Positions 24,790-64,000 of a stretch of 64,000 bases of DNA are shown here, piece by piece. Each line of letters begins with the position of its first letter. Position 1 is the first letter of the stretch. A model generated the notes under the pieces. That model ran no database searches. It was given only the letters and a program-made list of their open reading frames with translations, and was not told where the DNA came from. Source of the DNA: Methylocapsa acidiphila B2 (lineage in GTDB: Bacteria > Pseudomonadota > Alphaproteobacteria > Rhizobiales > Beijerinckiaceae); the NCBI RefSeq assembly GCF_000427445.1, contig NZ_KE386496.1, positions 2,274,506 through 2,338,505 on the forward strand. The letters are read 5' to 3'. Position numbers and translations under genes: made by a program.

Positions 24790-26034
24790 TCAGGCAAACA
24801 GGCCTTCGGCCTTGATCAGGGCTTCGGCGAGCTTATCGACCTCCTCGAACGTATTGTAGAGGGCGAAAGAGGCTCGGCAGGTTGACGTCACGCCGAAACG
24901 GGCGAGCAACGGCTGGGCGCAATGGGTGCCGGCGCGCACGGCGACGCCCGAGCGGTCGATGATCGTCGCGACGTCATGCGCATGGGCGTTCTTCATCTCG
25001 AAGGCGATGATCGCGCCCTTGCCTTTCGAGCGGCCGAAGATGCGAAGCGAATTGATCTTCGACAGACGCTCGTGGGCATAATCGCCCAAAGCGCTTTCAT
25101 GGGCGTGAATGCGGGCGCGGCCGACCTTCTGCATATAGTCCACCGCGGCGCCAAGGCCGATCGCCTGCACGATTGGCGGCGTGCCGGCCTCGAAGCGATG
25201 CGGCGGCTCGTTATAGGTGATGCGGTCCTTGGTGACTTCGTTGATCATCTCGCCGCCGCCGAGGAAGGGCGGCAGCTTCTCCAGCCATTCCTGCTTGGCG
25301 TAAAGCGCGCCGATGCCCGTCGGCCCATAAAGCTTATGGCCGGTCACGACATAGAAATCGACGTCGAGATCGCGCACGTCGACCTCGAGATGCACGGCGC
25401 CTTGCGAACCGTCGATCAGCACGGGAATGCCTCGCTCATGGGCGATCTTGATGATCTCCTTCACCGGCGTGACGGTGCCGAGCATGTTCGACATATGGGT
25501 GATGGCGACGATCTTGGTCTTCGGCGTCAGCGCCTTCTCGAATTCCTCGAGGGAGAAATTGCCCTCGTCGTCGACGTCCACCCAACGCAGGACGGCTCCT
25601 TTGCGCTCGCGCAGGAAATGCCACGGAACGATATTGGCGTGATGCTCCATGATCGAAAGAACGATCTCGTCGCCTTCCTTGATGAAAGCCTGGCCGAAAG
25701 AGGACGCGACCAAATTGATCGATTCGGTCGCCGATTTCGTGAAGATGATCTCGTTGACGGAGCCCGCGTTGAAAAAGGCGCGAAGGCTTTCGCGCGCGAC
25801 TTCGAATGCATCCGTCGCGGCGTTGGCTAGAAAATGCAGGCCGCGATGAACATTGGCATATTCATGGTAGATCGCATGGACCATGCGATCTACGACCTCC
25901 TGCGGCTTTTGCGCGGACGCGGCATTGTCTAGATAGACCAAGGGCTTGCCATAGACTTCCATCGACAGGATCGGAAAATCCTGACGAATGCGCGTTACGT
26001 CCAACGGCGCCTCGGCTGTGATGTGCTTGTTCAT
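24790..26034 (-). CDS. sufS: Cysteine desulfurase SufS (class II)
   Basis: 414 residues from the ATG at 26034 (MNKHITAEAP), which has GGAG at a good distance; an ATG four codons upstream is the alternative. A PLP enzyme that takes sulfur from cysteine. YVVTGHKLYGPTGIG has the PLP-binding Lys, and VRAGTHCAQPLLARFG has the active-site Cys in the class-II (SufS/CsdA) context. EIVLSIMEHHANIVPW holds the PLP-stacking His. It sits between sufD and sufT on the minus strand and needs SufE or SufU as partner, which is not seen in this window. Confidence 0.96.
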   Translation of the reverse strand: MNKHITAEAPLDVTRIRQDFPILSMEVYGKPLVYLDNAASAQKPQEVVDRMVHAIYHEYANVHRGLHFLANAATDAFEVARESLRAFFNAGSVNEIIFTKSATESINLVASSFGQAFIKEGDEIVLSIMEHHANIVPWHFLRERKGAVLRWVDVDDEGNFSLEEFEKALTPKTKIVAITHMSNMLGTVTPVKEIIKIAHERGIPVLIDGSQGAVHLEVDVRDLDVDFYVVTGHKLYGPTGIGALYAKQEWLEKLPPFLGGGEMINEVTKDRITYNEPPHRFEAGTPPIVQAIGLGAAVDYMQKVGRARIHAHESALGDYAHERLSKINSLRIFGRSKGKGAIIAFEMKNAHAHDVATIIDRSGVAVRAGTHCAQPLLARFGVTSTCRASFALYNTFEEVDKLAEALIKAEGLFA

Positions 26035-26146
26035 GCCCTGCTCCATGCTCGGCGTCCGACGTCAAGCCTACGCATCGCCCTAACGGTTCCATTCTTCGAA
26101 GCGGGGCGGGACAGACATGCGCCCCGCCGCCAATTCCATTCGTTGC

Positions 26147-27481
26147 TCAGCCCTTCGACCGCGCGGACAGCCATTTGGCGATTTCAGCGCGAAAGCCCGC
26201 GACCAGGGCTTCATTCTCTATTTCATCGACCAATTCGCCCGCGAAGGCGTCGAGAAGAAGCGACTCCGCCTCGGCGAAAGGCAGGCCCCTCGCCTGGAGG
26301 TAGAAGAGTTGATCGACATTGAGACCGCCGCAGGTCGCGCCATGTCCGCAGGCGACGTCGTCGGCGAAGATCTCGAGCTCCGGCTTGTTGTTCATCGCCG
26401 CCGTATCGGACAGCAGCAAAGCCCTGCTGAGCATCTTGCCGTCGGTCTTTTGCGCATGCGGCGCGACATGGATCTTGCCCTGGAAGACGCCAGTCGATTC
26501 CTCGTCGAGAATATATTTGAACGTCTCCCGACCGGAGCAATTCGGCGCGCCATGCTCGACGAACAGGGTGGTGTCGGCGTGCTCGCGGCCGCGCAGCAGC
26601 GACACGCCCCTCAGCGAAGCGACGGAATCCGCGCCGTCGAAGCGCATGAAGATCTGCCGCCGCACGAGGCCGCCGCCGGTGATGAGCGCGAAACTGTCGA
26701 ATTTCGCCTCAGCGCCGACATGCGCGATAAAAGTCTCGAGCCGCACGCTGCCCGCGACGGTTTCCGTCACCATAGCCGTGTGATCGAATTTGGCGCCGTC
26801 GCCGACCGAGACGACGAGACAGCCAAAGGTTTGGCCCCTGCGCGCGCCTTTGCCATGGCTCGTTTCAGCGAGGCGGACCGAGGCCCCGGCGCCGACGACG
26901 ATGAGCGACCGCGTGAAACAGGCTGACGGAGCGCTCGCCGCCGTAGCATAGACGAGATTGATGGGCTCGGCGATCTGCGCGCCGGGCGCGACCTCGATCA
27001 CGACGCCGTCCTGCATCAGGGCCGCATTCAAAGCCGCGATCGGATCTTTCGCGCCGAGACCCTGCCCCGCCAATAAGGCGATGAGATCGGGACGGCCTTC
27101 GGCTAAAACGGACGCGAGCGACCGGACCACGACGCCTGCCGGCATGGAATCGGACAATTCGGGCGCGAAGGCGCCGTCGACCAAAACCAAGCGCTGAGCA
27201 AGCGCGCCGGGACCGGCGAATTCGGCGCGAAGCGCCTCGATCGCCGCCGCGGCGGGGAGCGGCGCGATCGGAAGCGCCTCCCGCATTAGCGCGCGCAGGT
27301 CGGTATAGTGCCACGCCTCGACGCGACGATGCGGAAGACCCGCATCATGAAAGGCGGCGAAGGACTCTTCGCGCAGCTTGGCCACCTCGGCGCCGCCAGG
27401 CAGAGCCGGCTTGGCGGCGGCGAAGGCCTCGGCCAAAGCGGTTTCGGCCGGCGTGCGCGTGGGGATGATTTGAGCGCTCAT
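26147..27481 (-). CDS. sufD: Fe-S cluster scaffold complex protein SufD
   Basis: 444 residues. The N-terminal helical part (FHDAGLPHRRVEAWHYTDLRALM) is typical of SufD, then a right-handed beta-helix rich in G and V follows. The C-terminal region contains HGATCGGLNVDQLFYLQARGLPFAEAESLLLDAFAGE, the conserved SufB/D end; the His shown is the SufD residue needed at the SufB-SufD interface. SufD forms the SufBC2D scaffold. It begins 12 bp after sufC, so the two are co-transcribed. Confidence 0.96.
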   Translation of the reverse strand: MSAQIIPTRTPAETALAEAFAAAKPALPGGAEVAKLREESFAAFHDAGLPHRRVEAWHYTDLRALMREALPIAPLPAAAAIEALRAEFAGPGALAQRLVLVDGAFAPELSDSMPAGVVVRSLASVLAEGRPDLIALLAGQGLGAKDPIAALNAALMQDGVVIEVAPGAQIAEPINLVYATAASAPSACFTRSLIVVGAGASVRLAETSHGKGARRGQTFGCLVVSVGDGAKFDHTAMVTETVAGSVRLETFIAHVGAEAKFDSFALITGGGLVRRQIFMRFDGADSVASLRGVSLLRGREHADTTLFVEHGAPNCSGRETFKYILDEESTGVFQGKIHVAPHAQKTDGKMLSRALLLSDTAAMNNKPELEIFADDVACGHGATCGGLNVDQLFYLQARGLPFAEAESLLLDAFAGELVDEIENEALVAGFRAEIAKWLSARSKG

Positions 27482-27493
27482 ATCGGCTTCCCC

Positions 27494-28249
27494 TTAGGCG
27501 ACGGCCTGCTCGGTCACATAATCGCGATAGCCGCTCTTTTCGAGCTCGAGCGCGAGTTCCTTGCCCCCGGTCCGCACGATCTGGCCTTGGGCCATCACAT
27601 GCACGGTGTCGGGGACGATATAATCGAGCAGCCGCTGATAATGGGTAATGACGAGGAAGCCGCGCTTGGGCGAGCGCAGCGAGTTGACGCCTTCGGCGAC
27701 CACGCGCAACGCATCGATGTCGAGGCCCGAATCGGTTTCGTCGAGAATGCCGAAGGAGGGCTCCAGCAAGGCCATCTGGAGAATGTCCATGCGCTTTTTC
27801 TCGCCGCCCGAGAAGCCCACGTTCAGCGCGCGCTTCAACATGTCGGACTTGATTCCGAGCTTGTCCGAGGCCTGCTTCACGCGCTTCATGAAGTCGGGCG
27901 TCGAGAGTTCTTCCTCGCCGCGCTGCTTGCGTTGCGCGTTCAAGGCCGCCTTGAGAAAGGTCAGGGTCGCGACGCCGGGGATCTCCAACGGATATTGGAA
28001 GGCGAGAAACAGGCCCTTGGCGGCGCGAACGTCCGGCTCGAGCTCGAGCAGATTGACGCCGTCCAGGAACACTTCCCCGGTCTCGACCGTGTAATCCTTG
28101 CGCCCGGCGATGACATAGGAGAGCGTCGATTTGCCAGTCCCGTTCGGTCCCATGATCGCAGCGACCTCTCCGTCCTGAACGGTGAGGTTGAAATCATTGA
28201 GGATCTTGCGATCGCCGATCGAAACGTTGAGATTTTTGATTTCGAGCAT
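27494..28249 (-). CDS. sufC: Fe-S assembly ATPase SufC
   Basis: 251 residues from the ATG at 28249 ([17 protein letters not shown]). An ABC-type ATPase: Walker A is GPNGTGKST, the signature is [14 protein letters not shown], Walker B with switch is [12 protein letters not shown], and the H-loop is VITHYQRLL. SufC energises rearrangement of SufB-SufD during cluster formation on the SufBC2D scaffold in the cytosol. The gap to sufB is 314 bp, unusually long for this operon, and is filled by a dispersed palindromic repeat. Confidence 0.97.
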
Positions 28250-28390
28250 CGTGTTTGGTCCTCGTTTCCACTCGAAAGGCGCAGCCGCCGGCATCGCTTC
28301 GCCGCAGGCCTGGAGACGGCGCAGCTCATCCGCGCCCGCAAGGACATGAAAGTCCTGTCTCTCGCCGCAAAAAAAGATTTTGGAAGCCGC

Positions 28391-28505
28391 TAGAACATGT
28401 TCTGAAAAGACGATCGAACTTTTCGATCAGAACATGCTCCAACTTATCAATTTCTAGCGCGTTCTTGGTGATTGGACGCGTCCATCCAATCGGAACGCGC
28501 TCTTG
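28391..28505. repeat. Dispersed palindromic repeat, fullest copy (between sufB and sufC)
   Basis: Two hairpin units follow each other. Unit 1 has perfect arms ATGTTCTGA (28397-28405) and TCAGAACAT (28427-28435). It is followed by CATGCTCCAACTTAT, nearly identical to the tail of the 20.05-kb copy. Unit 2 has arms GCGCGTTC (28457-28464) and GAACGCGC (28493-28500) enclosing GATTGGA/TCCAATC. The insertion splits an otherwise tight operon, so it probably lies within the suf mRNA. The remaining bases of 28250-28563 show nothing else. Confidence 0.7.
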
Positions 28506-28563
28506 GCGCGAAGGGCGGAGCGATGATCGCGCCCGGTCCTTCGCCCATGCGCACGGGCTTTCG

Positions 28564-30039
<1,476 letters not shown>

Positions 30040-30109: not shown

Positions 30110-31318
30110 TCAGCCTGCGCGGCGCGTTCCGCCCGCCGCCTTTTCACGCCTCGCTTCAATTCCGCCGACCGCCGCCTCGAGCGCCCGAACAAATATAGCA
30201 TAATCGTCAGGATGCGAATTCCACCCCAGACTGACCCGAATCGCGCAACGCGCCAATTCGGGCTTGACGCCCATCGCCGCCAAAACATGCGAGGGCTTGA
30301 CCTTGCCGGAAGAGCAGGCCGATCCAGAGGATACGGCGACTCCTGCCAGGTCCAACAACATTAGCAAGACCTGTGCCTCCGTCTCCGGCACTGCGAAGCA
30401 GGAGGTGTTTGGCAAACGCTCGACTTCGGCGCCAAAAAAATAGGCGCCTGGAGCGATGCGGGCGATTTCCGCCTCCAATTGGTCGCGCCATGCCGCAAAG
30501 CGCGTCGCTTCCGCCGCCCGCTCGGCCTTTACGGCGCGAAGCGCCGCGCCCAAGCCGGCGATCCCCGCGACATTTTCGGTTCCGGCCCGCAGGCCCCGCT
30601 CCTGCCCGCCGCCGCGCAGCAGCATCTCTTCTATGTGGGGGGCGCGCGTCGCGAAACACAGCGCCCCGACCCCTTGCGGGCCGCCGAATTTATGCGCTGA
30701 GAGCGCCAAGGCGTCGGCGCCGAGCCGGCTGATGTCGCAATCGATCTTGCCCATCGCCTGAACCGCGTCGCAGACAACGAAGCCGCCGGCGGCATGGACG
30801 CGCTCCGCGGCGGCGCTCACCGGCTGCACGACCCCCGTCTCATTATTGGCCGCCTGCAAGACCAGCATCATCCGGCGCCCCTCATGACGCTGCAAGGCGG
30901 AGTCGAGCGCGTCCAGATCGAGGGTTCCTTGCGCCGTCAGGTCGACGGACTCCACCGCGGCCGCGGGAAAACGATGTCCGGCCCGGACCGCCGCATGCTC
31001 GCCGGCCCCGAGCAGGAGCAAATCGAACGGCCTACGATCAGCTTGATCGGCGCGCAAATGCGGCGTCAGCGCCAAATTGAGCGCCTCCGTCCCGCCGGAG
31101 GTGAACGCCGCTTGGCCCGAAGGCGCATTGACGAAGGATAGAAGCTCCGCCCGCGTCTCCTCGATCAAAGCGCGCGCGGCGCGGCCCTCGGCGTGAACGG
31201 AGGAAGCGTTGCCGCAAAGGTCGAAGGCCGCCGCCATGGCCGCGCGGGCTTCCGGGCGCAAGGGCGTCGTCGCATTATGATCGAGATAGACGCGCCGCCG
31301 CGCGGTCGAGGGAGCCAT
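30110..31318 (-). CDS. Cysteine desulfurase, class I (IscS/NifS-like)
   Basis: 402 residues. VYLDHNATTPLRPEARAAM is the class-I N-terminus, LSAHKFGGPQGVGAL holds the PLP Lys, and VSSGSACSSGKVKPSHVLAAMG holds the mobile active-site Cys loop that is long in class I and short in SufS. QAANNETGVVQPV is also typical. The gene heads the suf operon, as in many Hyphomicrobiales, giving the operon two desulfurases. Because no nifS occurs in the nif cluster within the window, this enzyme could also supply sulfur for nitrogenase maturation (inference). The start is the ATG at 31318; no iron-regulator gene is adjacent. Confidence 0.94.
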   Translation of the reverse strand: MAPSTARRRVYLDHNATTPLRPEARAAMAAAFDLCGNASSVHAEGRAARALIEETRAELLSFVNAPSGQAAFTSGGTEALNLALTPHLRADQADRRPFDLLLLGAGEHAAVRAGHRFPAAAVESVDLTAQGTLDLDALDSALQRHEGRRMMLVLQAANNETGVVQPVSAAAERVHAAGGFVVCDAVQAMGKIDCDISRLGADALALSAHKFGGPQGVGALCFATRAPHIEEMLLRGGGQERGLRAGTENVAGIAGLGAALRAVKAERAAEATRFAAWRDQLEAEIARIAPGAYFFGAEVERLPNTSCFAVPETEAQVLLMLLDLAGVAVSSGSACSSGKVKPSHVLAAMGVKPELARCAIRVSLGWNSHPDDYAIFVRALEAAVGGIEARREKAAGGTRRAG

Positions 31319-51714: not shown

Positions 51715-53016
51715 TCAACGCCAAGCACGGGCCATGCCAAGCACGTCCCCGATAAGGCCCTTAAGCCGACGGGTCTGGAAGAAGGATTTGACGATCGCAT
51801 TTTCCTTCGACTTCTTGTCGAGCCCGTCGACCCTGAACCAGGTTTGAGCGGCCTTGGACAGAAGCTGGGGATAGGTCGTGAACAAGTGCTTGTTATGCAG
51901 CGTGCCCGGAAGGTTCTTGTATTTCTTCAGATCCTTCATGACGAATGAATCGTCGAGCCGCGCCTTGTAGCTCGCCAGATTGGCCGCCGTCGGCGGCGCG
52001 TGGCGCGATTTCAGATCGGCGATCGTCTCGGCGGCGAGGCGGCCGGTCGTCATCGCGAGATTGGAGCCTTCACGATGCACGGCGTTCACGAACTGGCCCG
52101 CGTCGCCGACAATGAGCCAGCCGTCGCCGAAGAGCTGCGGGATCGCCTTATAGCCGCCCTCGGGAATCATATGGGCGGCGTATTCCTTGACCTCCGAGCC
52201 GGCGAGCAGCGGCTTGATCGAAGGATGCGCCTTGAAGGACTCGAGCAGGCCATAGGGCGTCTGGCCCTGATCGGCGAAGTCCGAAATGAGGCAGCCTATG
52301 CCGATCGAGATGCTTTCCTTGTTGGTGTAAAGGAAGCCGGTGCCGGTCATGCCTTTGGTGATCGTGCCGGCGGCCTCAATGACCACGCCTTCGTCGCCTT
52401 GCAGGTTGAAGCGCGCCTCGATCGTCTCCCGCGGCAGGAAGTGCATTTCCTTGACGGCGAGGGCCACCGTGTCCGGCGGCGGCACCGCCCGAAGGCCCGC
52501 GCGCGCGCCAACGAGGCCGCTCACGCCCTCGGCCAGGACCACGACGTCGGCATAGATCGGATCCCCGTCGCGGTCGGTCCGCACGCCGATCACCTTGCCG
52601 TCGGCGTCGCGAATGAGCTCGACGACTGTGGTCTCGCAGAGCAACAGCGCGCCCGCCTGCACGACGCGGCGGGAGAACCATTTATCGAACTGCGCCCGAA
52701 TGATCGTGTAGCGGTTCGGCCGGTCCTCGTTGAAATCCTCCGAGCGATAATGCGCGCCGCAAAAGGAACGGTCGTCCATCATCCAAATGCGCTGCTCGAT
52801 GATGTGGCGTTCGAGCGGCGCATCCTCGCGAAAGTCGCCAACAAGGCCTTCGAGCGCGTCGGCGTAGAGAATCGCACCCTGCACATTCTTCGAGCCCGGA
52901 TACTCCCCGCGCTCGAGTTGGAGAACCTTCAGGCCGCGCGTCGCCAAGCTGAAGGCGCACGCATTGCCCGAAGGGCCGGCGCCGACGACGATCGCATCGA
53001 ATTTCTCTTGCGCCAT
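51715..53016 (-). CDS. fixC: FixC flavoprotein (ETF-quinone oxidoreductase-like)
   Basis: 433 residues. The N-terminal FAD fold [36 protein letters not shown] is followed by [11 protein letters not shown] and the ETF-QO-like FAD contact [27 protein letters not shown]. FixC passes the high-potential electrons to quinone and, with FixX, the low-potential ones to ferredoxin. It lies 11 bp after fixB. Length matches the family. Confidence 0.97.
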
Positions 53017-53027
53017 GGTGGGCTCCT

Positions 53028-54134
53028 TTATTCTGCCGCGGGCCGCGTGGCGGCGGCTGACAGACGTTTGCGAAACGCTTCGGTCAGGGCTGGAAGCGCC
53101 AATGCGGCGTCGGCGACGATTCCGACATGGGCGAAATCGAAGATCGGGGCGTTCTTATCCGTGTTGATCGCGACGATCAGATCCGCGCCTTCGACGCCGA
53201 CGCGATGCTGGATCGCGCCCGAAATGCCCGCGGCGATATAAAGGCGCGGCCGGATCGTCTTTCCGGTCTGGCCGATCTGGCGATCGGAACTGATCCACCC
53301 CTTTTGCACGAGCGGCCGCGATCCGCCCCATTCGCCGCCGAGCACGTCGGCGAGCTGGCGCACCAGCAGATAATTATCCGCGTTCTGCATCCCGAGGCCG
53401 CCCGCGACGACAATATCCGCATAAGGCAGATTTGCCTTGTCCGTGCTGCCGTCGGGCAGAAACGCCAGGATCTTGGTGATGATGTCGTCCTCGGGCAAGG
53501 AGACGTCGTGGCGGACGATCCGACCGGTGCGGCCCGCCTGATAGAGCGGCATGGGCGCAACGCGCGGACGCATCGTCGCCATTTGCGGCCGGTAGTTCAG
53601 CGTGTAGATCGTGCAGAGAAGCGATCCGCCGAAGGTCGGGCGCGTCGCCGCGAGCGAGCCGTCGGCGTCGACCGCAAGCTCGGTGCAATCGGCGGTGAGG
53701 CCGGTGAGCAGGGTCGTCGCCACAGAACCCGCAAGATCGCGACCGAGATTGGTCGCCCCGAGCAGGAGAATCTCGGGCTGATATTTATGGACGAGCTCGG
53801 TCATCACCGCCGTGTAGGGTTCATTGCGGTAATCGACGAGGGCAGGATTTTCGACAACATAGCAGACGTCGGCGCCATAGGCGAAAGCGTCAGCGACAGA
53901 AGCGTCGGTTCCGCCCGGCGGGCCGAGGACGACCGCGCCGAGATCGACTTTGAGCTGATCCGCCAGCTTGCGGCCTTCGCCGAGAAGCTCCCAAGAGACC
54001 GGATGAACGACCCCGCGCTCGAGCTCAAGCATGACCCACACATGCTTGTAGCTCTTCAAATGCTCCGGCAGCTCCTTCTTCTGATTGGCGCGGCTCTTGG
54101 GTTCCGCAGCTGGAGCTTTCGCCTTCTCGTTCAT
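53028..54134 (-). CDS. fixB: FixB, electron-transfer flavoprotein alpha-like subunit
   Basis: 368 residues. The C-terminal FAD domain has [41 protein letters not shown] and [26 protein letters not shown], the canonical ETF-alpha signature. The N-terminal ETF domain starts near [30 protein letters not shown], after a Lys-rich extension. FixB forms the bifurcating flavoprotein core with FixA. It begins 28 bp after fixA. Confidence 0.97.
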
Positions 54135-54162
54135 AGGAAGCTTCCTTCAATACGAATGCGCA

Positions 54163-55017
54163 TCAATAGCTCATCGCCCCTTTGAGCATGTCCCGCTCGA
54201 GCACGGGTTGCCGCTTGCCGATTTCCGCGATCAAGGCGTCGGAAATATCGCTCATTGACTTGCCCTCCACCTCGATCTGGAAGGCTTTTTCATCGCGCGG
54301 CTTAGGCGCGAAGACTTTCTTCACGATCGTCGGAGAGCCGCGCAATCCGCATAAGGTCAAATCCGTGATGCCGGCTTGCGCCGCGTTCCACGTGATGATC
54401 TCGGTGCGGGCCCCCCGTAGCGCGTCCTCGATGCTGCCGCGCCTAATGTCATTCGTGCCCTCGAGCATGGTGATCAAGCAAGGCAGCTTGGTCTTCAACA
54501 CTTGAATGCCGCCCTCGGCGCGGCGATCCACCGTGATCTCGCGCGCCTCCATATCGAAACTCTCGATCTTGGACACATAGGTCAATTGCAGCAGGTTCAA
54601 TCGCTTCGCGACGCCGGGGCCGACCTGCGCCGTGTCCCCGTCGATGGTCTGCTTGCCGCAGAAAATAAGGTCCGGCGCGCCCCAATTTTCAGAGACTTTC
54701 TTGATAAGGAACGACAGGGCGTAGGAGGTCGCCAGCGTGTCCGACCCAGCGAAGAAGCGATCGGTGAGCAGCACGGCGCGGTCAGCGCCGAAGGTCAGGC
54801 ATTTCCGCAGGGCGGTGTCGGCCATCGGCGGCCCCATGGTCACTACGGTCACTTCGCCGCCGTGACGATCGCGGAGACGCAAAGCTTCCTCGAGCGAAAA
54901 AAGGTCATAAGGATTGATGATCGTCGGCACGCCCTGCCGCATGATCGTGTTCGTCACCGGATGGACGCGAATTTGCGCGGAATCCGGCACCTGCTTGACG
55001 CAGACCACAATATGCAT
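54163..55017 (-). CDS. fixA: FixA, electron-transfer flavoprotein beta-like subunit
   Basis: 284 residues from the ATG at 55017 (MHIVVCVKQVPDSAQIRVHP). INPYDLFSLEEALRLRD and VEVKLPCLITMLE-type segments (here LKTKLPCLITMLEGTNDIRRGS) are ETF-beta signatures; the second FAD used in bifurcation binds between this subunit and FixB. It heads fixABCX. A sigma-54-like promoter lies 48 bp upstream, so the unit can be transcribed apart from nifW. Confidence 0.97.
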   Translation of the reverse strand: MHIVVCVKQVPDSAQIRVHPVTNTIMRQGVPTIINPYDLFSLEEALRLRDRHGGEVTVVTMGPPMADTALRKCLTFGADRAVLLTDRFFAGSDTLATSYALSFLIKKVSENWGAPDLIFCGKQTIDGDTAQVGPGVAKRLNLLQLTYVSKIESFDMEAREITVDRRAEGGIQVLKTKLPCLITMLEGTNDIRRGSIEDALRGARTEIITWNAAQAGITDLTLCGLRGSPTIVKKVFAPKPRDEKAFQIEVEGKSMSDISDALIAEIGKRQPVLERDMLKGAMSY

Positions 55018-55064
55018 CGATCGCCTCTCGTCTACGCGCAAAATTTTTCCTGATATATGAAAAC

Positions 55065-55080
55065 AGCAAGTCCCGGACCA
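55065..55080 (-). promoter_or_regulatory. Sigma-54-like promoter of fixABCX
   Basis: On the minus strand TGGTCCGGGACTTGCT matches the -24/-12 consensus TGGCAC-N5-TTGC with the invariant GG and GC ten bases apart; CAC is replaced by TCC. It lies 48 bp before the fixA start. I see no NifA site (TGT-N10-ACA) within about 150 bp upstream. Confidence 0.65.
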
Positions 55081-55185
55081 TTGGCGACGGACCGGGCGAT
55101 TGCCGCATCGCCGATTGGAATTTGCGCTTCGGAAGCCGCCGAAGCGCAAATATGTCTAATGTTTAGGCAAACGAAGCCTGGACGC

Positions 55186-56274: not shown

Positions 56275-57495
56275 CTAATGCGGCAATGCCGATCCATCAC
56301 AAGGCGGCCTGGCGCGACCCGCGCGCGACTCCGAGCCGCTCACGGTCTCATAAATTCCTGTGAGCCGATCCATGGAGACGCCCGCCTTGGTCCGTTGCGC
56401 GTCCGCCTTGATCTCGCTCAAGACAATCCTGGCCTCTTCCAAAGAGGCGTCGAAGCCGAGCTCCTTCAGCGCATTCACCACAGCGCCGACTCCAGAGTGC
56501 TTGCCCAGAACCATCCGGTGGCTGCGCCCCAGCACAGCGGGGTCGAGCGCCTGATAGCAATCCCGATTCTTCAAAAGTCCATCGACGTGAATGCCGGATT
56601 CATGGGTGAAAACCGCATCGCCGACAATCGCTTTGGATTCCGGGATTGCGCGCCCCGCAGCCCGCGCGACAAGCTCGGCGACCTCCGAAAGACAGCGAAG
56701 GTCGATCCCGCTTCGATAACCGTAGAGCACTCCCACCGCCACCGCGACCTCCTCGAGCGGCGCATTTCCGGCGCGCTCGCCAAGCCCGACGACCGTCACG
56801 CTGGCATGGCCCGCCCCCGCCCTCAACGCGGCGAGCGTGTTGGCGGTCGCCAAACCGAGATCATCATGCGCGTGGATCTCGATTTCCAAATCGCTCGCGC
56901 GCCGCAAACGCTCAATCATCGCGTAAGTCGAGAACGGGTCGAGCACGCCCAGCGTATCCGCGAAACGAATGCGCCGCGCCCCGGCCTGCGCCGCGCAATC
57001 GGCGACATGGAGCAGGAAATCCATATCCGCTCGGGAGGCGTCCTCACAGCCGACCGCGATGTCGAGCCCCTTGTCTCGCGCATAGGGGACGACATCGGCG
57101 ATCAGGGATAAGGCGTGGTCACGTCCCGCCCGAAATTTCGCCTGAAGCTGAATATCGGAGACGGGAACCGAAACATTGGCCATAGGCACGCCGGATGAGA
57201 CCGCGGCGTCGACGTCGGAGCGCCGCATGCGGCACCAGGCGATGGGCGTCGGCCCCAAGCGCTCGCAGACGATTGCATTGATCGCCGCGATTTCATCAGC
57301 GCCCATAGCAGGGGTGCCGACTTCAATTTCCGATACGCCGGCCCGGGCCAAGGCCCGAGCAATCGCGACTTTCTCGCCAGCGGTGAACGCCACCCCTGGC
57401 GCCTGTTCGCCATCCCGCAAGGTCGTGTCGTTCAAGGCGATCGACGACGAGCCGTCGGGCGAGGCGATGGACTGGACGTCTGGCCTTACAGCCAT
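56275..57495 (-). CDS. nifV: Homocitrate synthase NifV
   Basis: 406 residues from the ATG at 57495, which has GGAG upstream; an ATG seven codons earlier is possible. [20 protein letters not shown] is the N-terminal signature of the isopropylmalate/homocitrate synthase family, [25 protein letters not shown] holds the metal-binding His-x-His, and [25 protein letters not shown] is the C-terminal motif. NifV condenses acetyl-CoA with 2-oxoglutarate to homocitrate, the organic ligand of FeMo-cofactor. It lies 113 bp after the nifU-like gene and likely shares the iscA promoter. Confidence 0.95.
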
Positions 57496-57608
57496 TTTGG
57501 CATACTCCGGTCCCAAGCCAAGACTTCGAGCAACAAGACTTCAAGCGACACGGTTACGAGCGAGAGAAGCCGTTGCCTCCCGCCCAAAGAGACATCCAAT
57601 GCGCAACA

Positions 57609-57932
57609 TTACAAATGGGGCAAATTGCCGCCGACCGGGATGACGCGGATCATGCGCCCCGTCGCCTCGACAAGCTTGGCCTGCACGCCATTGAGGGTCA
57701 TGGAGGACAATTGGCAACCGACGCAGGCGCCCGTCATCTTGACGAAGACCTTATCGCCCTGAACGTCAATCAACTCGCAATCGCCCTTGTCTCTTTGGAG
57801 ATTGGGCCGAATGCTCTGGATCGTCGCCTCGATCACCTTGCGCCGCTCGATGGCGGCGTCATCGGCGACAGTCTCGGCAGGCGGCGAAGCAGCTTCGTCC
57901 TTGGCGTCGATCTTCTGCGCGGAATTCAACAT
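57609..57932 (-). CDS. nifU: NifU C-terminal (Nfu-type) domain protein
   Basis: 107 residues from the ATG at 57932. Only the C-terminal Nfu domain is present: VIEATIQSIRPNLQRDKGDCELIDVQGDKVFVKMTGACVGCQLSSMTL, with the cluster-binding C70-x2-C73. The IscU-like scaffold domain and the central [2Fe-2S] domain of full NifU (about 300 residues) are missing, and the ATG leaves only about 25 linker residues before the domain. It lies 10 bp after the A-type carrier gene. It can hold a [4Fe-4S] cluster for nitrogenase but cannot be a de novo scaffold of the IscU type. Confidence 0.92.
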   Translation of the reverse strand: MLNSAQKIDAKDEAASPPAETVADDAAIERRKVIEATIQSIRPNLQRDKGDCELIDVQGDKVFVKMTGACVGCQLSSMTLNGVQAKLVEATGRMIRVIPVGGNLPHL

Positions 57933-57942
57933 TAAACGCCCC

Positions 57943-58266
57943 TTAACTGAATGACTTGCCGCAAGAGCAGGAATTTGTCGCATTCGGATTTTCGAAAACG
58001 AAGCCCGCGCCTTCGAGGCTTTCGACAAAATCGATCTGCATGCCGGACAGCAGCGGCTGGGACAGAGAGTCGACGAATACCTTGACGTCGTCGCCAGCGT
58101 CCACGACCGTGTCGCCTTCGCGCGCCTCGGAATCGAGCCCGATCTGATATTTATAGCCGGCGCAGCCGCCTGCTTCGGCCTTGACGCGAAAGCCCGCCCC
58201 TTCTTTCCCGGAACGAACGAGGGCGTTCTTCACGGCGCTGAGCGCGGTGTCGGTGAGAGAAATCAT
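57943..58266 (-). CDS. A-type Fe-S carrier (HesB/IscA-nif)
   Basis: 107 residues from the ATG at 58266, preceded by the strong ribosome site AAGGAGGTT. The three ligands of A-type carriers are present: Cys35 in EAGGCAGYKYQIGLD and C100, C102 in SCSCGKSF. In diazotrophs this nif-linked form, usually upstream of nifU, carries clusters to nitrogenase. It heads the iscA-nifU-nifV unit and has a good sigma-54 promoter plus a NifA site. Confidence 0.95.
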   Translation of the reverse strand: MISLTDTALSAVKNALVRSGKEGAGFRVKAEAGGCAGYKYQIGLDSEAREGDTVVDAGDDVKVFVDSLSQPLLSGMQIDFVESLEGAGFVFENPNATNSCSCGKSFS

Positions 58267-59262: not shown

Positions 59263-59577
59263 TCAGGCCCCGATTTCCTCCAACTCACCCGCCTTCGTAT
59301 GCGTCTGGCAGTCCTTCGGACAGACCCGAGCGCAAGCGCCGCAGCCGATGCAGGCGCCGATGTCATTCATCGCCATGACCTTGCGATCGAAATCATCGTC
59401 GTCCTCGTCTTCGAGCTCGACAATGTCGCCGTCCTCGTTGACGCCTTTCAGCGTCATGACGTCGCGCCCGCAGACCTTGTAGCAGCGGCCGCAGCCGATG
59501 CAGGTTTCCGGATCAATCGCCGTCAGAAACTCCGGCTCCCACATGCGCCCGTCGCGCGTTCCCTTCGCTTCCATCAT
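59263..59577 (-). CDS. fdxB: Nif-specific ferredoxin III (FdxB)
   Basis: 104 residues with two 4Fe-4S motifs: CIGCGRCYKVCGRDV and ACIGCGACARVCPKDC. An acidic loop (ELEDEDDDDFDRK) lies between them, and METMWEPEFLTAID-type residues (here RMWEPEFLTAIDPETC) come before. This is the nif-linked ferredoxin III family, an electron carrier for nitrogenase or cofactor assembly. The first or second ATG could be used. The gene lies between DUF683 and nifQ. Confidence 0.94.
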   Translation of the reverse strand: MMEAKGTRDGRMWEPEFLTAIDPETCIGCGRCYKVCGRDVMTLKGVNEDGDIVELEDEDDDDFDRKVMAMNDIGACIGCGACARVCPKDCQTHTKAGELEEIGA

Positions 59578-60756: not shown

Positions 60757-62133
60757 TCAATGCGCGACCGTCGGCGAAGCGAGGCTGTCCGCCCCTTCAG
60801 CCGGATGCGGATACCAGGTGTCGGGCCTGGCGACATGCGCATTGGCGATAAACATATTCGCTATATCGAAAATCAAATCGCGCGCGCCCCTGTAGCCGAC
60901 CGCCGTGATATGCCCGGCGCCGAGCCGATCGAAGATCGGCAAGCCCATGCGGAAGAGCGGTATGTGCAAGCGTTCGGACGCTTGCCGGCCATGGGCATGC
61001 GTGATCAAGAGATCGCAGCCCGCGCCAAGCCTTTCCAAATCCTCCAAATCCCCGATCAGCACGGATTCGCACTGAACTTTTTCCAGGATCGGCGTCGCGT
61101 TTGTCGAGACAGCCGCGGTAATATGGCAGCCCATTTCGACGAGAAAGCTCGACAGGTCGTAGAAGAAGTCCGGCTCCAGACCCATAGCAATTTTCTTGCC
61201 GCCAGTATGGAAATGCCCGTCGAGCATCGCGTCGACGAGCTGGCTGCGTTGGCGCTTGATCCGAAGCGGAACCTCACGACCGCTGATCTCCATCAGATGC
61301 GCGATGAACGCGTCCGTGGGCAGCAGCCCGATCATCCGTTCGAAAAGCTTGAACGGAACGCCCGCCTTTTTCTGAAGGGTTTCCGCCGCCAATTTCATAT
61401 GAGAGCCGAGCGCGATGCAATGCGCGGCGTCGCCAAGCGCGGCGATCTCCTCGAGCGAGATTCCGCCGAGCGAAGTCGGCGTGAAATCGTCGGGGATATG
61501 CCCGTCGAGCGAAGCGGCGAGATCGGGCAAGAACAAAGGCTCGAAGCCGAAGCCTTCGATAATGTCGCGCAATTCGTCGAGATCGCCCGGCGTGTATTGA
61601 GAGCCGGGCAACACGACGAGCTTTTTTTGATCGCGCGCGACGTCAGGCTCGGGTTCCTTCACCAGCTTTTCGATGATCTTCGCAACGGTCTTTTCCCAGC
61701 CGTCCTGAAAGGCGTCCTTGAAGTCTGGCGTCGAGACATAGACGAGCGCGATGTCGTCTAGTTCCGGATGCTGTTGCCGAACCAGGGATATATAGGCGTC
61801 GACATCGTCGCCCTTGGTTTCCGTCACGCCGGTGGAGCAAATGCCGATCAGGCGCGCCTTCTGCTTGTTCGAAATATTGACGATCGCCTGCTCGACATTT
61901 TCATAACCGCCGAGCACCGTCGCCACCTCGCTCATCGCGGTGGTTTGGAGCGGGATGGCTTCCTTGAAATGGCGCACGAAAAGAACAAGTCCAAAGGACG
62001 TGCAGCCTTGCGAGCCGTGGAACAGCGGCATGCTGTCCCTGATGCCCATGAAGGCGAGCGCCCCACCGATCGGCTGACTCATTTTCAAAGGATTGACGGC
62101 GCAGGCCTTCTTGCCGATCTCGACGATGGCCAT
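60757..62133 (-). CDS. nifN: FeMo-cofactor scaffold subunit NifN
   Basis: 458 residues. KKACAVNPLKMSQPIGGALAFMGIRDSMPLFHGSQGCTSFGLVLFVRHFKEAIPLQTTAMSE is the conserved NifN start, with cluster cysteines C11 and C44. LIGICSTGVTETKGDDV and GDLEDLERLGAGCDLLITHAHGRQASERLHIPLFRMGLPIFDRLGAGH are also typical. NifN forms the alpha2beta2 scaffold with NifE, on which the FeMo-cofactor precursor matures. It starts 9 bp after nifE with GAGGTGAT upstream. Confidence 0.97.
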   Translation of the reverse strand: MAIVEIGKKACAVNPLKMSQPIGGALAFMGIRDSMPLFHGSQGCTSFGLVLFVRHFKEAIPLQTTAMSEVATVLGGYENVEQAIVNISNKQKARLIGICSTGVTETKGDDVDAYISLVRQQHPELDDIALVYVSTPDFKDAFQDGWEKTVAKIIEKLVKEPEPDVARDQKKLVVLPGSQYTPGDLDELRDIIEGFGFEPLFLPDLAASLDGHIPDDFTPTSLGGISLEEIAALGDAAHCIALGSHMKLAAETLQKKAGVPFKLFERMIGLLPTDAFIAHLMEISGREVPLRIKRQRSQLVDAMLDGHFHTGGKKIAMGLEPDFFYDLSSFLVEMGCHITAAVSTNATPILEKVQCESVLIGDLEDLERLGAGCDLLITHAHGRQASERLHIPLFRMGLPIFDRLGAGHITAVGYRGARDLIFDIANMFIANAHVARPDTWYPHPAEGADSLASPTVAH

Positions 62134-62142
62134 AGGATCACC

Positions 62143-64000
62143 TCATTCAGCAGCGACAGCGATGGGAGCGACGATTTCCGACAAAATGTCGTCAATCGTA
62201 TCGCAGCAGCTCGTGCAGCCGCCGCCTGCGTTGGTCGCTTCGGTCACTTCCGCGACCGTAGTCAAATTTTTGGCGTGCACGGCGTCTTCGATCATGCCGC
62301 GCGTGACGTCCTTGCAATTGCAGATCTTGACCGCGCGCCGCTCTTCCAGCGTCAGCTCGACGACCGGACCGCCGGCCAGACCTTCCAGAATGCCGCCAAT
62401 CGCACCCCGGCACCCTGTGCAGCCCGAACCGGCATGGGTGATGTCGACAACCTGTTCGACCGTCGTCAGCGCGCCGGTCGAGATCGCATCTTCGATCGTG
62501 CCGAGATCAACCGTCTTGCACTTGCAGATTTTCTTCGAACGGCGCTTGGCCTCAGCCTTCGCCGGATCGGCGGCGAGTTCGGCGGCTTCGCGCGCGGCCT
62601 CGGCGTCGGCTTTGGCCTGCCAGCTATCGGCGGCGTTTTGCCAGGGCGCGATCGTCCGAACCTGATCCCAGATCGGATTATAGAGCGCCTTGTCGATCTC
62701 CTTGACGAGATCGACCATGCCCTTGTAGCCGGAATAAGCGTGATGACGCTCCTGGTTGATGTCGAGCCAGGGCATATTGGCCTTGAGTGCGATGAACTGG
62801 GACCGGCCGCCCGAAAGCATGATGTCGGCCCGCGCGTCCTTCAACATCTTGTACATTTCGCGCGGCGACATGTCGTCGAAGGCATGCGCGTCCTCACCCA
62901 TCAATTCCTTGATGCGCTCTTTATCTTCCTTGGTCGACTTCTTGACCGAGGTGCCGACGATCTCCATGCCGACTTCCTGCAGCGCCGCGACGACCGACCA
63001 GGACTTGACGCCGCCGGTGATGAGCAGGACCTTCTTGCCCTTCAGCCGCGGCAGATAGGACATGATCTCGTCCCAGGCGAGCTTTTCCTCGCGTGCGATC
63101 ACCGCCTCGACACGGTCCATGAATTCCGCCGGAGCGCCCCGGTCGATGACAAGCTGGGCAAGTTGCCGCAGCGAGTCGCTCATATCGCCAATGCCGTAGA
63201 AGGAGCCTTCAAAATAAGGAATTCCGTATAGATCCTCGAGCTTGCGCGTGATGTTGATCATCGCCTTGGAGCACACCATCATCGTCGCCCGGGCGCGATG
63301 CGAGCTCGCGACATCCGTATATTTAGCGTCGCCGGAAATGCAGGAGAGGATCCGAAAGCCAATTTCCTTCAGAAGCGGCTCGACCTGCCACATTTCACCG
63401 GCCAGATTATATTCGCCGATGATATTGACGTCATATGGCGTGGTATATTCGGGCTCGACCGTGCCGATCACATGCGCAAGCAAAGCCTCGCCCGCGAGCT
63501 TATTGCCGAGATTCTTCGGTCCAACGAAACCCGGCGAATTCACCGGCACGATCGGCTTGCCGAATTTCTTCGAGGCCGCCTTGCAAACCGCGTCGATGTC
63601 GTCGCCGATCATGGCGGGGACGCAGGTCTGATAAACAAAGACAGACGGAGGATTATATTTCTCGATAATTTCCTTGATGCTCTTATAGAGCCGCTTCTCG
63701 CCGCCGAACACGACGTCGGTCTCGTTCAGGTCCGTGGTGAAGCCGGTCCGATAGAGCGTGGAGCCCGAGGAATAGGCGCCGCGATTGTCCCAGGAATTGC
63801 CTTCGCAAGCGATTGGGCCATGCACGAGGTGAGCGACGTCGGTGATCGGCTGCAGCGCGATTTTTGCGCCGTCGAATGCGCATCCACCCGCGGCCCCGCC
63901 CGGCTGCAATTGCTTTGTGCAGCCCTTCTTGCGTTCCTTCTCCGATTTCGCCGCATTTTTTGGACATGCGGGCTCGTTGAAAACGTCCTGGACCGTCGCC
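62143..64000 (-). CDS. nifE: NifE with two extra C-terminal [2Fe-2S] (BFD-type) domains, 5' end cut
   Basis: The frame runs past base 64000, so the N-terminus is missing. The body is NifE: VFNEPACPKNAAK, GGAAGGCAFDGAKIALQPITDVAHLVHGPIACEGNSWDNRG and MLSGGRSQFIALKANMPWLDINQERHHAYSGYKG. After an Ala-rich linker come two BFD/NifU-central-type domains. The first (about 62535-62380) starts KKICKCKTVDLG and ends SGCTGCRGAIGGIL. The second (about 62328-62180) starts VKICNCKDVTRG and ends GGCTSCCDTIDDIL. Both have CxC-x32-CxxC, the spacing of the permanent [2Fe-2S] site in NifU. NifE normally lacks a tandem pair. It is the lead gene of the nifENX unit visible here; its promoter is outside the window. 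Confidence 0.95.
   Translation of the reverse strand, partial: ATVQDVFNEPACPKNAAKSEKERKKGCTKQLQPGGAAGGCAFDGAKIALQPITDVAHLVHGPIACEGNSWDNRGAYSSGSTLYRTGFTTDLNETDVVFGGEKRLYKSIKEIIEKYNPPSVFVYQTCVPAMIGDDIDAVCKAASKKFGKPIVPVNSPGFVGPKNLGNKLAGEALLAHVIGTVEPEYTTPYDVNIIGEYNLAGEMWQVEPLLKEIGFRILSCISGDAKYTDVASSHRARATMMVCSKAMINITRKLEDLYGIPYFEGSFYGIGDMSDSLRQLAQLVIDRGAPAEFMDRVEAVIAREEKLAWDEIMSYLPRLKGKKVLLITGGVKSWSVVAALQEVGMEIVGTSVKKSTKEDKERIKELMGEDAHAFDDMSPREMYKMLKDARADIMLSGGRSQFIALKANMPWLDINQERHHAYSGYKGMVDLVKEIDKALYNPIWDQVRTIAPWQNAADSWQAKADAEAAREAAELAADPAKAEAKRRSKKICKCKTVDLGTIEDAISTGALTTVEQVVDITHAGSGCTGCRGAIGGILEGLAGGPVVELTLEERRAVKICNCKDVTRGMIEDAVHAKNLTTVAEVTEATNAGGGCTSCCDTIDDILSEIVAPIAVAAE

Follow-up and report, generated by a model that had tools for sequence, protein, structure and literature searches.

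The NifE protein encoded at one end of the window, the whole 64,000-nucleotide stretch of Methylocapsa acidiphila B2 DNA analysed here, ends in two genuine tandem copies of a BFD-type [2Fe-2S] domain; in many alphaproteobacterial NifE proteins this domain occurs once, at the C terminus. We propose, tentatively and with a probability of about 0.4, that this tandem, set on a conserved arm, serves as an electron relay bound to NifEN; the most likely role of the tail is that of a redox module held on NifEN. The preliminary description of this DNA had reported NifE joined to two [2Fe-2S] repeats of the NifU kind and had offered a redox relay or cluster-delivery module as their putative role, which is plausible.

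The nifE reading frame (62143..63999, minus strand) is open at the window end and runs uninterrupted through NifE and the C-terminal extension. In the genome it spans 685 codons from stop to stop; a plausible ATG, with AGGAGAATGAC directly before it, lies 14 bases past the window end, and this likely start gives a protein of 623 aa. The body (62635..63999, minus strand, the gene's first 14 bases lying outside the window) belongs to the NifE family by TIGR01283, with 652.3 bits against a curated cut-off of 505.1, over in-window residues 2-453 and model positions 4-459 of 459; the Oxidored_nitro match covers in-window residues 40-439 (2.6e-107). In the predicted full-length model, built from 38 sequences, the body resembles NifEN structures, the best solved match being A. 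vinelandii NifEN at 53% identity. Because 17 distinct genomes have the identical architecture, the tandem NifE is no sequencing artefact, and two genes joined by a sequencing frameshift are ruled out.

The first domain (62377..62532, minus strand) and the second (62176..62328, minus strand) were scored against Fer2_BFD (PF04324) with the repeats cut apart, giving 56.1 bits (E 4.6e-15) and 61.8 bits (E 7.6e-17), respectively, each above the gathering cut-off of 26 bits. Both contain the four-cysteine pattern of Fer2_BFD, CxC-x(about 31-33)-CxxC, with a spacing of x32. The profile search that the preliminary description had proposed thus bears out its reading of NifE followed by two [2Fe-2S] repeats of one spacing, in a frame free of frameshifts. 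By NCBIfam score the tail is closest to NifU_proper (TIGR02000, 81.7 bits), ahead of NirB (60.3) and Bfd (17.1), but it is not a three-domain NifU, for which the cut-off is 273.3 bits. Block pLDDT values in the full-length model are 82-88 for the first BFD and 72-89 for the second. A predicted model of the extension (7 sequences) has a mean pLDDT of 67, and only four Bfd chains of Pseudomonas aeruginosa match its fold convincingly, with TM 0.73-0.76 by target length but modest E-values (0.07-0.25). Each tail domain is predicted to bind a stable [2Fe-2S] cluster, like its relatives. Of the extensions read, the 20 that exceed 150 aa, from 17 distinct genomes, each have two intact cysteine motifs; 33 of their repeats have the x32 spacing and 7 have x31. 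In six pairs of relatives, which share genomes and include some dS values above 1, dN/dS is 0.04-0.27 for the repeats (12 comparisons) and 0.02-0.04 for the NifE body, the BFD domains changing faster than the body. The extension had no match in a plasmid collection.

Ahead of the first BFD lies a conserved arm of 33 residues (62533..62634, minus strand), predicted to be helical in both the extension model and the full-length model. Its amino acid identity is 88% in one of the six pairs (L028/L031) and 94-100% in the other five, against 63-94% for the BFD domains of the same pairs, and with dN/dS below 0.07 it is conserved nearly as well as the NifE body. This stretch had been called an Ala-rich linker; what gives way is the loose-spacer reading of that name, given the predicted helices and the 88-100% identity between relatives. 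The stretch is probably a positioned arm. Two NifE proteins from the same order (L050 in G354 and L068 in G385) keep the arm start (WEQRADEA and WQERAIAQ, respectively) and have no BFD, as if the domain had disappeared or given way to low-complexity sequence.

NifE proteins with a single BFD are common in Hyphomicrobiales. In 28 genomes of the window genome's family, the 33 NifE-like places read divide into 7 with two BFD motifs, 13 with a single motif and 13 lacking it. When named genomes were scanned for the extension, a search that favours conserved tails, 122 loci came up, and of the best 80 of these 79 adjoin at least part of NifE; recounted, these 80 comprise 13 tandem forms, 42 single forms, 23 of a GGCC variant, one that is unreadable in frame (L152) and one with too little sequence to show NifE (L154). 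The tandem form is thereby known from 17 distinct genomes of Beijerinckiaceae and Xanthobacter: the window's own, six others of the family, L091, Methylocapsa aurea (L092) and eight Xanthobacter, after removal of overlaps (L089 = G050, L090 = G126, L119 = G003). The suspicion that a tandem pair is unusual agrees with these counts (13 in the best 80 of 122 loci and 7 of the 33 family places), the form recurring in two groups. In the order, NifE scores above cut-off in 62 of 347 genomes. Sequence was read for 33 of the 60 NifE-bearing genomes besides G000 and G017, and the other 27 were judged tail-less by open frames shorter than 515 aa, that of G433 being cut at a contig end; the 34 further places read in the 33 genomes include 7 intact single BFDs (L049, L052-L057) and two GGCC forms (L064, L070). 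Across 385 genomes of the class and 398 of the phylum, NifE and BFD in one frame occur only in the window genome's own order among the matches listed, and NifE-like matches without BFD, some of which may be NifD, were counted by eye outside the order in at least 11 genomes of the class list and at least 33 of the phylum list. The fusion is not confined to the order, since the scan of named genomes also found it in Acidocella, Acidiphilium, Nitrospirillum and an Azospirillaceae MAG.

The GGCC variant marks one Bradyrhizobium clade (L118, L138-L140, L143-L148, L153, L156-L158, L160-L168, L064 and L070), in which the BFD at the NifE C terminus lacks two residues, so that GGCxxC becomes GGCC and the CxxC pair becomes CC, the rest being well kept. 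By sequence it is a natural variant with altered putative ligands. Its hosts are, as we take from their species names, mostly legume symbionts; this clade presumably still fixes nitrogen, which would count against the relay.

The history of the tail was followed in a tree of NifE cores. The 147 loci read (33 + 34 + 80), less 6 partial or second copies and 4 short cores, left 137 cores, 124 of them distinct; 26 near-duplicates, mostly GGCC-type Bradyrhizobium and Methylocystis, were removed by hand, leaving 98. All BFD-bearing proteins fall in one clade of 75 (SH-aLRT 96), and six tail-less members at several places within it fit one gain followed by several losses. The GGCC form arises at one place (96) and the tandem form at two. 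Two independent origins of the tandem would follow from this best tree, which parts the Beijerinckiaceae from the Xanthobacter tandems with two changes forced by starred branches. That the tandem was instead one shared invention, or was exchanged between the two groups through gene transfer, is a real possibility, if not the one that the best tree favours: an AU test with all tandem NifE held together does not reject the grouping (p-AU 0.118), and the second domains of three of the eight Xanthobacter proteins group with Beijerinckiaceae domains. Yet the first and second Beijerinckiaceae domains themselves fall in one group (SH-aLRT 95) that includes the three Xanthobacter domains, which speaks against a single origin. 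The domain tree behind these groupings has weak resolution (114 rows with near-duplicates left out, 56 columns, 12 of 109 inner branches starred); it places 24 NifU BFD domains in a group of their own (SH-aLRT 91), with the NifE tails outside, the BFD of the NifU L183 having no row in it. The preliminary assignment of the repeats to the NifU kind of BFD therefore stands by profile score and not by this tree. The idea that a resident NifU recently donated the BFD is likewise unsupported, the NifU domains grouping apart in this weak tree.

In the relay that we favour, a Nif/Fix ferredoxin would supply the tail with electrons, and the tail would hold the iron-sulfur clusters of the NifEN scaffold in a reduced and properly assembled state, a task that the [2Fe-2S] part of NifU may perform in other diazotrophs. 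In lineages that lack NifU and may draw on the general SUF machinery for clusters, the second BFD might let the relay carry more or reach further. The uninterrupted frame that matches both NifE and BFD, the intact cysteine motifs of every tandem extension read, the low dN/dS of the repeats and the conservation of the arm all argue for this reading. Directly downstream of nifE lies the gene of the partner subunit (60757..62133, minus strand; Oxidored_nitro 1.9e-111), whose likely identity as nifN is taken from its position beside nifE. A 4Fe-4S dicluster ferredoxin in the gene run of nifE (59263..59577, minus strand; Fer4_7 3.1e-12) is a candidate electron donor, and together with genes resembling fixABC in the same region it is consistent with a relay. 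These fixA-, fixB- and fixC-like genes (51715-55149), near nifV (56275-57516), match below the curated cut-offs and are a possible electron supply for nitrogenase.

Beside nifV the window genome keeps only the C-terminal domain of NifU, as a NifU-like protein with an Nfu domain alone (57609..58028, minus strand; PF01106 1.6e-21, residues 66-130 of 139), which has neither scaffold domain nor BFD and whose TIGR02000 match is confined to positions 188-290. This gene and an IscA-like gene remain in the nif cluster; outside the cluster, the only NifU_N match in the genome is a 201-codon frame with 28.8 bits (cut-off 22). The genes sufS, sufD, sufC and sufB (24790..30039, minus strand; TIGR01979, TIGR01981, TIGR01978 and TIGR01980, all above cut-off) lie about 31-32 kb from nifE, and the SUF system is the likely source of clusters in the absence of NifU, a setting that also suits the relay. 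A separate NifS/IscS-like cysteine desulfurase is encoded at 30110-31318 on the minus strand (TIGR03402, 289 bits, below cut-off). The other BFD proteins of the genome, by reading of open frames, are NirB-like, nitrate-reductase-like and small Bfd-like, kinds known as redox carriers, which again points to a relay.

Full-length NifU is found in none of the 17 tandem genomes, although G050 is 78% complete and L089-L091 and L136 come from MAGs, so that its absence there is weaker evidence. In the 28 NifE-bearing genomes of the family it occurs in 0 of 7 with the tandem, 6 of 13 with a single BFD and 6 of 8 without BFD. NifU was searched for in the genomes behind 40 of the best 80 named loci and found in four, none of them among the 13 tandem ones. 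Sixty further genomes of the order include 23 with full NifU (3/7 with a single BFD, 0/2 with GGCC and 20/51 without BFD). A rule that BFD appears wherever NifU was lost is ruled out by the 31 of 51 BFD-less order genomes that have no full NifU either (33/53 with the two GGCC-type genomes; 27 of these order genomes were called BFD-less from open-frame length alone). The lack of NifU thus does not require a BFD tail, and the 6/13 family and 3/7 order genomes with both show that a single BFD can occur without NifU loss. These tail-less genomes without NifU, and the single-BFD genomes that keep it, weaken the relay reading. A phylogeny-corrected test of the link had no power, as the NifE tree offers only 2-3 starred independent contrasts. 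An apparent swap within one genus, with three genomes having NifU and no BFD and two having the tandem and no NifU, was set aside because their NifE proteins lie on different branches of the tree, which looks like different nif inheritance rather than a swap on the spot. The NifU copies L083 and L084 (of G128, Methylosinus according to L117, and of G078) have a long low-complexity Ala/Pro-rich insert between BFD and C-terminal domain, longer than in the other NifU copies compared.

The permanent cluster of NifU sits in its BFD domain. The same gene contents could mean that the tail hands over clusters, accepting or storing [2Fe-2S] from SUF, IscA or Nfu carriers for NifEN in place of NifU, with the cluster at the NifE-NifN interface as the target, a reading that we consider doubtful. 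It would account for the restriction of the tandem to genomes without full NifU and for the IscA-like and NifU C-terminal domain genes kept in the cluster. NifS scores above its cut-off of 530.75 bits in 20 of the 27 genomes searched and in none of the six tested Beijerinckiaceae tandem genomes (of nine; best 480.8-495.7 bits), which also favours hand-over; it does so, however, in four of five tested Xanthobacter tandem genomes, the fifth, a MAG, having the gene in two pieces. The accessible part of PMC3169532 (2011) describes in A. amazonense a BFD-bearing NifE together with a NifU without N-terminal and BFD domains, a pattern that the window locus matches and that hand-over would explain. 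Against it stand the retention of NifU in 6 of 13 single-BFD family genomes and the account in PMC11605450, as far as its accessible text goes, of the NifU [2Fe-2S] cluster as permanent and of those in its N- and C-terminal domains as transient.

A bolder possibility, which we judge unlikely, is that NifE has taken over the [2Fe-2S] job of NifU. In hosts that have shed NifU, and in Beijerinckiaceae the nif-type NifS as well, the BFD pair on its rigid helical arm would tie the housekeeping SUF system directly to FeMo-cofactor assembly, and nitrogen fixation would then run without a dedicated NifUS pathway. We know of no settled answer to the role of the [2Fe-2S] middle domain of NifU, and the natural series of NifE proteins (no, one, CC or two BFDs, in hosts with or without NifU) is a direct way to probe it. 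Such a series shows which nif parts are dispensable, a point of importance when nitrogen fixation is to be transferred to new hosts.

It is quite improbable that the tail is a tolerated passenger, an old fusion of little function duplicated and lost by drift. The tail-less proteins within the BFD-bearing clade (6 of 75), the altered cysteine motif of the Bradyrhizobium clade and the faster evolution of the BFD domains relative to the body would suit such a passenger, but dN/dS never exceeds 0.27 across the 12 comparisons of repeats and is under 0.07 in the arm, and the cysteines are intact in the 42 single and 13 tandem tails of the best 80 loci, from a scan that favours conserved tails. Least probable is a part in oxygen or redox sensing or protection, in which the tail clusters would serve microaerobic diazotrophs as a switch, either sacrificial or regulatory: the hosts Methylocapsa, Beijerinckia, Xanthobacter, Bradyrhizobium and Methylocystis are largely aerobic diazotrophs, but no sequence feature points that way and aerobic diazotrophs such as Azotobacter manage without the tail (465-residue chain, PDB 9i0f).

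Among known systems, Bfd is a free-standing protein that reduces bacterioferritin, and the predicted tail model has the same small helical [2Fe-2S] fold (PDB 6e6r, 4e6k). NirB-type nitrite reductase has a tandem BFD too, as in the 820-aa protein of the window genome named NirB-like by reading, but that tandem sits inside a larger enzyme and its domains lie on long branches away from those of the NifE tail. With the NifU middle domain (TIGR02000 positions 133-188 of 290, the best-matching stretch) the tail shares CxC-x32-CxxC and its top NCBIfam score, whereas no IscU-like or Nfu domain is attached to it and the KAGGGCxTCF/Y segment common in NifU copies reads differently. The A. vinelandii NifE (PDB 9i0f, 9ian, 3pdi) is 53-54% identical in the body and has no BFD tail. 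A 2026 paper on the NifEN structure describes, in its accessible part, NifX tethered to NifEN via its C terminus. In literature judged mostly by titles and abstract openings, we found no functional study of a NifE-BFD fusion or of a tandem. The single fusion itself, whose existence elsewhere had been rightly anticipated, has been in print since 2011: the accessible text of PMC3169532 assigns a BFD [2Fe-2S] domain to NifE of A. amazonense, Bradyrhizobium, Xanthobacter and Azorhizobium and reports none in NifE of A. brasilense Sp245, Azospirillum sp. B510 and R. palustris. The NifE studied here is the same fusion beside a similarly shortened NifU, with two copies where that text speaks of "a" BFD domain, although the Xanthobacter tandem may already be drawn in its Additional file 2; the duplication is accordingly a variant of a known fusion and looks lineage-specific. 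This analysis adds to it the doubling, the arm, the GGCC variant and the observation that no tandem genome seen has full NifU.
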